DNA of 64,000 nucleotides from Lachnospiraceae bacterium (GTDB lineage Bacteria; Bacillota; Clostridia; Lachnospirales; Lachnospiraceae), in NCBI GenBank assembly GCA_015057365.1, contig SVEN01000003.1, positions 1 to 64,000 of the forward strand. The letters are read 5' to 3'. The translations under genes and the position numbers were made by a program. Below are positions 41,740-43,147 of this stretch, in pieces. Under the pieces are notes generated by a model, which had not been told where the DNA came from, made no database searches, and saw only the letters and a list, made by a program, of their open reading frames with translations. Position 1 is the first letter of the stretch. Every line of letters starts with the position of its first letter.

Positions 41740-41777
41740 AAAAAAAAGAAGCCGTTTCCTATAAAACAGCTTCTTTT
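41740..41777 (-). terminator. Terminator of the cobalamin-uptake unit
   Basis: AAGAAGCTGTTTT pairs with AAACGGCTTCTT, followed by eight T residues on the minus strand after the ECF S component gene. Confidence 0.85.
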
Positions 41778-41785
41778 ACTTACTT

Positions 41786-42304
41786 TTACGGTGTATTTGT
41801 ACTTCGCTCTAATTGCTGCAGTACCAGTACAATCGGCACAATAAGCAGTCCGCACACCAAATTGCTGGTACCGTGTATGACATCAAACGGGAATCCCGCC
41901 ACTATCCAGGCAATCATTCCCTTAAAATTCAGCCCGAACAGCAGTGCCTGGGCCGGCGCATACAGGATTCCGAACCCATATCCGTGCAACGCATTTACCA
42001 AAGAATACACCACCACCGCCACCGGCTTCGGCATTTTCTTCGGAAGCAGCATGGTGATTCCCCAGAGCACGGCCCATATGTACAGATACGGAATCCACCA
42101 GGTCCCAAAACCGGCAAAGATACCGTTTAACAGCACATAAATATAAATCGGATACAAGGCCTTCGCCCGGTACACCACTGTAAAGGCAATGGTAAACACG
42201 CCTAACAGGTGGATATTCGGCGCCCATTCCATAATCATCTTTGAGACATACATCAATGCTCCCAGCATGGAAAATATGGCCATTTCCCGAATTGTCAGCT
42301 TCAT
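41786..42304 (-). CDS. ECF transporter S component, probably cobalamin-type
   Basis: The 172-residue membrane protein has five to six hydrophobic helices and the small-size, N-terminal layout of ECF S components (TIREMAIFSMLGALMYVSKMIMEWAPNIHLLGVF, with the Ala-rich helix 1). It binds a vitamin and uses a shared EcfAA'T energising module encoded elsewhere. Because it follows a cobalamin riboswitch and a transcobalamin-like lipoprotein, cobalamin or a corrinoid precursor is the likely substrate (inference), as in CblT-type components. The start lies directly against the stop of the DUF4430 gene. Confidence 0.83.
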   Translation of the reverse strand: MKLTIREMAIFSMLGALMYVSKMIMEWAPNIHLLGVFTIAFTVVYRAKALYPIYIYVLLNGIFAGFGTWWIPYLYIWAVLWGITMLLPKKMPKPVAVVVYSLVNALHGYGFGILYAPAQALLFGLNFKGMIAWIVAGFPFDVIHGTSNLVCGLLIVPIVLVLQQLERSTNTP

Positions 42305-42858
42305 TACTTGGATACCTTGAAGGAATAGTTTGCTCCTTCTTCGATGTTGGTGGAATCTACGCCACTCATGCCGTACTCACCGTTTACATAAAAGCCCCAG
42401 TAGGTCTGGTCTACATCGTAATCCGCCAGGATTCCGTTGACCTTCTTCACATAAAGGCCGTACTGTCCTTCCTCTCCCTCAATTAAGCCGTGCTCCAAAA
42501 GTGCGGCACCTACTGTCTCTGCATCGGTATGAATCACGAACTTCGTCTCATTTCCGTCCTTATCCACTACAGAAAAGTTAAATGTTGCCTTGCCCTCGCC
42601 AAGCTCGGTCACTCCATCCTCAGTCTCGCCTGCCTGTCCGACATCCTCACCGTCTTCAGTAGCTTCGCCGCCTTCCGCACCCTCGCCGGCTGCGTCGCCC
42701 TGATTGTCCTTGGCCGGTGCGGTGACCTTGGTCTCCTGACCGCTCTGCGGGGTCTCCTTCTCATCCTTCTTGCATCCTACCGTAAACAATGCCATAGCCA
42801 CAATCAGCATCATACAAAGGATACGCGTTAACATCGTGTTTCTTGTTTTTCTTTGCAT
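42304..42858 (-). CDS. DUF4430 (transcobalamin-like) lipoprotein
   Basis: The 184-residue protein has a lipoprotein signal (lipobox-like TVGC, then KKDEKE) and an acidic Gly/Glu/Ala linker (GDAAGEGAEGGEATEDGEDVG). The C-terminal DUF4430 domain carries KFVIHTDAETVGAALLEHGLIEGEE, YGLYVKKVNGILADYDVDQTYWGFYVNGEYGMSGVDSTNIEEGANYSFKVSK. DUF4430 is related to the C-terminal domain of transcobalamin and intrinsic factor, which closes over bound cobalamin. With a B12 riboswitch upstream and an ECF S component downstream, a surface corrinoid-capture role is likely (inference). Confidence 0.85.
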   Translation of the reverse strand: MQRKTRNTMLTRILCMMLIVAMALFTVGCKKDEKETPQSGQETKVTAPAKDNQGDAAGEGAEGGEATEDGEDVGQAGETEDGVTELGEGKATFNFSVVDKDGNETKFVIHTDAETVGAALLEHGLIEGEEGQYGLYVKKVNGILADYDVDQTYWGFYVNGEYGMSGVDSTNIEEGANYSFKVSK

Positions 42859-42894
42859 ATCGTTTCTCCTTTTATTTGTATTTCCTCTCTATCC

Positions 42895-43093
42895 TGCCGG
42901 CACTCGCGGCGTACATCTCTAGAGGAGCGTTTCTGTCCGGGTATTTCGACTCGGCATTGCTTTTTTCACCTTCTCGGATCACTCCAATGGCCTGTCCCGA
43001 AGGTTGTGGCACCTCCGGTAGAAAAAAGGTTATATCATGCCTCACGGCGACGGGCTCGTACAGGAGTTACACCTGTTTCCCCGACACAAAAAC
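42895..43093 (-). promoter_or_regulatory. Cobalamin riboswitch
   Basis: On the minus strand the leader shows the conserved core GGGAAACAGGTGTAACTCC, then CGAGCCCGTCGCCGTGA, then GCCATTG..GAGAAGGTG, and a diverged B12 box (CCGAGTCGAAATACCCGGAC). These appear in the order and spacing of adenosylcobalamin riboswitches. No intrinsic terminator is seen before the DUF4430 start, which suggests control of translation initiation. It would repress the uptake genes when cobalamin is plentiful. Confidence 0.9.
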
Positions 43094-43099
43094 AAGGTG

Positions 43100-43105
43100 A
43101 TTATA
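43100..43105 (-). promoter_or_regulatory. -10 box of the riboswitch transcript
   Basis: TATAAT on the minus strand lies just upstream of the riboswitch. The -35 region (TTCCCT at 17 bases) is poor. Confidence 0.6.
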
Positions 43106-43115
43106 CCACAAAGCC

Positions 43116-43147
43116 AAAAAAAAGGGAACCCATAATCGGATTCCCTT
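43116..43147 (-). terminator. Terminator of the hybrid kinase gene at 43172
   Basis: AGGGAATCC-loop-GGGTTCCC followed by eight T residues on the minus strand separates the kinase gene from the riboswitch. Confidence 0.85.

Follow-up and report, generated by a model that had tools for sequence, protein, structure and literature searches.

A riboswitch-preceded gene pair for a transcobalamin-like lipoprotein and a CbrT-related ECF S component probably forms a corrinoid scavenging operon in a Lachnospiraceae bacterium

The 64,000 nt of Lachnospiraceae DNA analysed here (contig SVEN01000003.1, positions 1 to 64,000, referred to as the window) quite probably contain the corrinoid scavenging operon of a B12-dependent gut bacterium, in which a riboswitch-repressed lipoprotein hands corrinoid to a CbrT-type S component working with EcfAA'T. 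Corrinoid scavenging through an ECF transporter follows from the riboswitch, the match of the S component to CbrT, the fold of the DUF4430 domain, the presence of B12 enzymes with no CbiD or BtuC-type permease found, and the adjacency of the two genes in 78 of 80 loci, and it is well supported. The physical hand-off from lipoprotein to S component is something we infer from fold, adjacency and anchoring.

The operon is encoded on the minus strand. Upstream of it, a hybrid histidine kinase gene ends in a terminator (43122-43147; 11 pairs, five of them G-C, followed by TTTTTTGGCT). A perfect -10 box, TATAAT (43100-43105), lies 24 nt 5' of the GGGGAA of the cobalamin riboswitch aptamer, which belongs to a P1/P2-less subtype and occupies 42931-43089. 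The aptamer is followed by the P13 hairpin of the expression platform (42883-42926; UCCUCU/AGAGGA, inner GCCG/CGGC, loop CGAGUGC) and by a Shine-Dalgarno sequence, AGGAG (42866-42870), located about 12 nt 3' of P13 and 7 nt 5' of the ATG. The DUF4430 lipoprotein (42304-42858, 184 aa) and the S component (41786-42304, 172 aa) are encoded next, with the ATG of the latter overlapping the last base of the lipoprotein stop codon (TAATG). An intrinsic terminator (41744-41777) with a hairpin of 15 pairs and a TTTTACATAA tail closes the operon. The order of riboswitch, lipoprotein, S component and terminator had been proposed from the letters of the window, and the hairpin and T run at 41777-41744 complete it. 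The genome assembly is 83% complete, and the named relatives in the family are gut Lachnospiraceae MAGs. Elsewhere in the window, on the minus strand between 47519 and 54625, several response-regulator-like and sensor-kinase-like ORFs in a row, recognised by eye, adjoin two exported paralogues that could be substrate-binding proteins.

The S component was identified by its relation to CbrT. In a search of the PDB with the single sequence, the sole match is 6fnp_A (E 9e-4, 22 bits), the entry deposited for ECF-CbrT (PMC5997447). A profile of the S component matches the same chain at E 6.2e-18, with positions 4-165 aligned to residues 8-175, and homology is therefore full-length. The structure model is all-helical with six helices (pLDDT 90), and its best Foldseek matches are ECF S components, every one with a weak E-value. 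No Pfam or NCBIfam family matched above cut-off; a match to PF04881 (E 0.12) fell below it and was treated as chance. As no family applies and the Foldseek E-values are weak, the identity rests on the sequence match to CbrT. The assignment as an ECF S component, made in the original prediction, is upheld by this match, and no grouping with the family of another vitamin was found. CbrT, which was predicted by Rodionov et al. 2009 (as cited in PMC5997447) and proven in 2018, binds and imports both cobalamin and cobinamide (PMC5997447).

The genome contains B12 users, namely a MetH-like protein and four B12-binding radical-SAM proteins. Within the 83% of the genome that is assembled, CbiD was not found and the FecCD permease PF01032 (BtuC-type) gave no match. 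The bacterium probably cannot make the corrin ring, and the proposed contrast with the BtuF/BtuCD route agrees with the lack of a FecCD match in this genome. FecCD permeases do occur in some members of the genus, where the pair need not be the sole route of uptake. Of 48 relatives in which CbiD and the S component were both looked for, none of the 13 with a clear S-component match has CbiD, versus 17 of the 35 without one (Fisher p 0.0016, uncorrected for phylogeny). Genome G002 is the sole genus member without the S component and the sole one with CbiD. In G002, contig C13 carries FecCD close to CbiD, which amounts to a clean exchange of corrinoid scavenging for synthesis. The assembly of the bacterium studied here yielded neither EcfT nor rplQ. 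EcfT is present in eight of nine other genus members, and in one of these (G001) it belongs to a ribosomal operon, rplQ-ecfA-ecfA'-ecfT-truA (gene names by eye). Because rplQ is missing too and EcfT is present in the genus, its absence fits an assembly gap, which is not to say that it proves one.

The gene pair is widely conserved. A profile search of GTDB genomes yielded 576 S-component relatives among the candidates examined, and gene neighbours were taken from the best 80 loci. DUF4430 lies directly upstream of the S component in 78 of these; one exception begins at a contig end. In whole-genome relatives the two genes adjoin in 19/21 loci, down to 31% identity, and a contig end truncates one of the two remaining loci. 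Roseburia inulinivorans (L066), a cultured relative, has the pair too. An RF00174 match precedes the pair in 42 of the 54 GTDB loci scanned. In a more distant clade the pair mostly lacks a riboswitch, which was counted against the explanation as regulated scavenging. A second, more CbrT-like set of DUF4430 and S-component genes, with an apparently TM-anchored DUF4430 protein and mostly no RF00174 match nearby, was observed in L014-L016, L018-L020 and L023; genome G010 carries one pair of each kind.

The lipoprotein consists of a signal peptide, Cys29 in a lipobox-like FTVGC, an acidic low-complexity linker and the C-terminal DUF4430 domain. The lipobox cysteine is kept in 10/10 of the closest homologues among the matches listed. 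DUF4430 proteins of the distant clade have no lipobox and an apparent TM helix instead, so that, judging from these sequences, membrane anchoring appears to be retained across clades while its mode changes from lipid to TM helix.

The two proteins could nevertheless act side by side without any hand-off, the S component binding B12 itself and the lipoprotein storing, protecting or sequestering corrinoids, for example against competitors. This explanation is considered somewhat unlikely. It gains from the properties of CbrT, which has high affinity for cobalamin and cobinamide; ECF-CbrT is described as a transporter that is complete with no additional binding protein (PMC5997447). It also gains from four loci of one genus (L143, L144, L145 and L148) in which a subtype riboswitch governs a DUF4430 lipoprotein gene and no S component is present in the flanking DNA examined; these lone genes were counted against a paired function. 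What speaks for a hand-off is that adjacency and overlapping start are kept in most loci and that anchoring persists in altered form, suggesting a need for nearness to the S component. The lone DUF4430 genes have a tRNA methyltransferase-like gene as neighbour and, in three of the four loci, a gene for a CPBP-like membrane protease.

The riboswitch is the genome's sole match to RF00174 (42918-43125, minus strand), with 43.2 bits at a gathering score of 31.5 (E 1.5e-7). The original prediction of a complete cobalamin riboswitch thus stands as to the family, with the covariance model above its threshold; it does not stand as to completeness, as the P1/P2 arm is missing and the -10 box lies inside that region. 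At its 5' side, from 43125 to about 43094, the match contains the T run of the kinase-gene terminator, which overlaps the 5' end of the match, and the TATAAT box. Transcription is therefore likely to start near 43093, which would leave about 42931-43089 for the aptamer proper, without a P1/P2 arm.

The same architecture recurs in other loci. RF00174 matches upstream of the pair form two groups, one with 90-107 bits and one with 32-52 bits, and the window belongs to the latter. In the alignment of the low-scoring group the P1/P2 arm is absent and P3 forms the terminal helix, with covariation (helices are named after the published numbering of cobalamin riboswitches as understood by the authors). 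Two-sided changes occur at six of seven P3 pairs in 37 variants, with 92% of cells paired; the window's own P3 has a G.G mismatch. TATAAT-like sites with at most one mismatch were counted in 47 variants, giving 47 sites in the nine offsets 18-26 nt upstream of the aptamer versus about 37 in the next 44 offsets, and a transcript starting from such boxes would begin at P3. The subtype shares with canonical RF00174 members the core GGAAA..GGTG, an L5 containing CCC, P6, the P6 extension GCCATTGG..GAGAAGG and a downstream P13. It differs in its low score, in the lack of the P1/P2 arm with P3 as terminal helix, in a short J3/4 (GGGGAAA in place of GAAAAGGGAAA) and in J6/3, which reads GUCGAAAUAUCC in place of GCCGGGAGACC (CGAAAUA and not CGGGAGA). 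It might be a known class II cobalamin riboswitch. In three loci (L049:1000-1664, L057:2705-3479 and L059:2923-3432) a single DUF4430 gene is preceded by a canonical and a P1/P2-less switch in tandem; control by two inputs, or a pair of promoters, is possible.

A model of the subtype, R1, was built from 37 copies, all of them upstream of DUF4430. It scores the window copy, which is part of the training set, at 145.3 bits. More than 100 bits were reached in 51 sources, canonical switches in the same loci score 39-55 bits, and intermediate scores were obtained for L093, L097, L100 and L109. Subtype copies in L012, L055 and L072 that reach >100 bits with R1 go undetected by RF00174 at its gathering threshold. 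The model was further run on whole genomes regardless of the proteins encoded. Besides the window's copy, 393 Clostridia genomes gave 12 copies with >68 bits, two of which lie at contig ends and the other ten (10/10) precede DUF4430. Among 299 Lachnospiraceae genomes, 16/16 further loci precede DUF4430 and an S component. A few of the scanned genomes also supplied training sequences, and the low-scoring tail is only partly classified; with these limits, the subtype riboswitch tracks the DUF4430 capture gene and has so far been seen only ahead of it, in 26/26 assessable copies of both scans together.

The phylogeny of the S components places the window's clade, on a long branch, apart from a clade nearer to CbrT (100/100 support). 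Two members of the latter score 52-55 bits to CbrT, compared with the 22 bits of the window protein. All 54 rows of the tree with a subtype riboswitch fall into one clade (100/100), which also holds members with a canonical switch and members without any; the clade nearer to CbrT has canonical switches or none. This separation, together with riboswitch junctions by the core that differ from the canonical form and the acceptance of cobinamide by both CbrT and the transcobalamin beta domain, would suit a cargo other than B12 itself, such as an incomplete or non-B12 corrinoid (cobinamide, pseudocobalamin). Such a cargo is doubtful: the genome has no detected CbiD, and canonical riboswitches govern S components of the window's own clade in L009, L046 and L047.

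The mode of switching was assessed from the leader sequences. The P13 loop GCGRGNGCCGG is nearly invariant across loci, and the outer stem varies in sequence with pairing kept in many of them. The P13 loop is a candidate partner of L5; in the window, pairing of L5 (CCCGU) with L13 (GCGAG) leaves one C.A mismatch, and one such mismatch is tolerated in known cobalamin-riboswitch kissing loops (PMC10907184). Known cobalamin switches work through ligand-dependent docking of L5 and L13 (PMC10907184), and the leader contains no terminator after P13. In view of this docking, the conserved P13 and the nearby Shine-Dalgarno sequence, translational repression by corrinoid is the likely mode, with its direction inferred. 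The position of the Shine-Dalgarno sequence outside P13 was counted against docking as a block to ribosome access. An anti-Shine-Dalgarno model, pairing CUCCU with AGGAG, was rejected: predicted folds of most leaders, including that of the window, keep P13 and leave the Shine-Dalgarno sequence mostly unpaired, and a strand-exchange switch is therefore not claimed.

The DUF4430 gene is the sole one found in the genome. Its product matches PF14478 at residues 114-181 (34.4 bits, cut-off 23.8) and no further Pfam domain, and NCBIfam gave no match above cut-off. A profile of 16 homologues detects 3u7z (RUMGNA_00854) at E 5e-37 and human Transcobalamin-1 (4kki) at E 6e-4 in the PDB. The AlphaFold model is confident over residues 81-184, with pLDDT >90 across the domain, and the transcobalamin-beta-like domain spans residues ~84-183. 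Its Foldseek neighbours in the PDB after 3u7z are haptocorrin, intrinsic factor and transcobalamin (E 1e-6 to 4e-4), among them a structure of the human transcobalamin beta domain on its own with cyanocobalamin. Crystals show this lone domain bound to cyanocobalamin and to cobinamide (PMC5599065). By model and profile, the prediction that the lipoprotein ends in a transcobalamin-related DUF4430 domain is confirmed, and a fold like that of the beta domain of transcobalamin, haptocorrin and intrinsic factor is supported. It is very unlikely that DUF4430 binds a metal or another ligand and owes its B12 link to the operon only, as the PDB annotation of 3u7z as 'putative metal binding protein' and the varied ligands of the SLBB superfamily, stressed by a reviewer of the 2007 paper (PMC1796856), would allow, given that the best fold matches after 3u7z are all B12 carriers, that in dozens of species the first gene behind a B12 riboswitch is a DUF4430 gene and that the subtype tracks DUF4430.

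Under the preferred explanation of riboswitch-controlled scavenging with hand-off, the RNA would bind cobamide when this is plentiful in the cell. L5 would then dock with the P13 loop near the ribosome binding site, and both genes would be translated less. When cobamide is scarce, the lipoprotein and the S component would both be made. Tethered by its lipid and acidic linker, the lipoprotein would capture extracellular corrinoids with its beta-grasp domain and pass them to the membrane-embedded S component. Import would follow from docking of the S component on the shared EcfAA'T motor. The second face of the binding sandwich, for which transcobalamin uses its alpha domain, may also come from the S component. 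The lipoprotein itself, with only 184 aa and DUF4430 as its one Pfam domain, has no alpha/alpha toroid and thus corresponds to one half of the mammalian sandwich. An extended form of this proposal appears quite unlikely: that the P1/P2-less subtype with its altered junctions is specialised in transcobalamin-like capture operons and may read another corrinoid than the canonical AdoCbl switch, which in some loci lies upstream of it in tandem, and that the operon encodes a split transcobalamin, with the DUF4430 lipoprotein as beta half and the S component in place of the alpha half, taking over the vitamin directly.

In outline, the idea of a capture protein serving an ECF transporter is not new, as Burroughs et al. 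2007 already predicted B12 scavenging by bacterial transcobalamin-like surface proteins together with CbiO/CbiQ-type (ECF) transporters (PMC1796856) and CbrT is known. Riboswitches are not mentioned in the text of that paper. In the literature searched, which left many subscription papers out of reach, no paper on the DUF4430-CbrT pair or the riboswitch subtype was found. Of the gut microbes with a predicted need for external B12, a 2019 survey could assign known B12 transporters to no more than roughly half, and it called the identification of the remaining transporters an open problem (PMC6593275). The pair is a concrete candidate for these missing importers in hundreds of Clostridia genomes, going by the 576 S-component relatives and the adjacency in the best 80 loci. 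Two features lend the locus interest: it opens the 2007 transcobalamin prediction to testing with a pair of small proteins, and its capture protein is tracked by a riboswitch subtype that standard annotation scores weakly or overlooks. It would connect the B12 carriers of humans with an uptake system at work in living bacteria.

Compared with known systems, the window S component resembles CbrT of Lactobacillus delbrueckii (6FNP) in its sole PDB match, the full-length profile alignment and the helical S-like model, and its gene is not clustered with those of the motor, which is also the case in group II ECF systems. It differs by its diverged, separate branch and by its pairing with a DUF4430 lipoprotein and a riboswitch. 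The C-terminal domain of the lipoprotein shares the predicted beta-grasp fold with the beta domain of transcobalamin, intrinsic factor and haptocorrin, but has only ~12-20% identity to that family, a bacterial lipid anchor and no toroid. The SLBB proteins of Burroughs et al. 2007 (PMC1796856) are similar in their surface-anchored transcobalamin-like domain, their occurrence in low-GC Gram-positives that usually lack B12 synthesis, and their link to ECF-type transporters, whereas here the partner is a directly adjacent CbrT-type S component, with no A/T genes beside it and under the control of the riboswitch subtype. BtuG and BtuH of Bacteroides are likewise described as surface lipoproteins that capture B12 for an importer; they are, however, outer-membrane proteins of Bacteroidetes that serve the TonB-dependent BtuB and not an ECF transporter, and the B12-binding proteins of this kind in B. 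theta are DUF4465, in contrast to the DUF4430 of the window.
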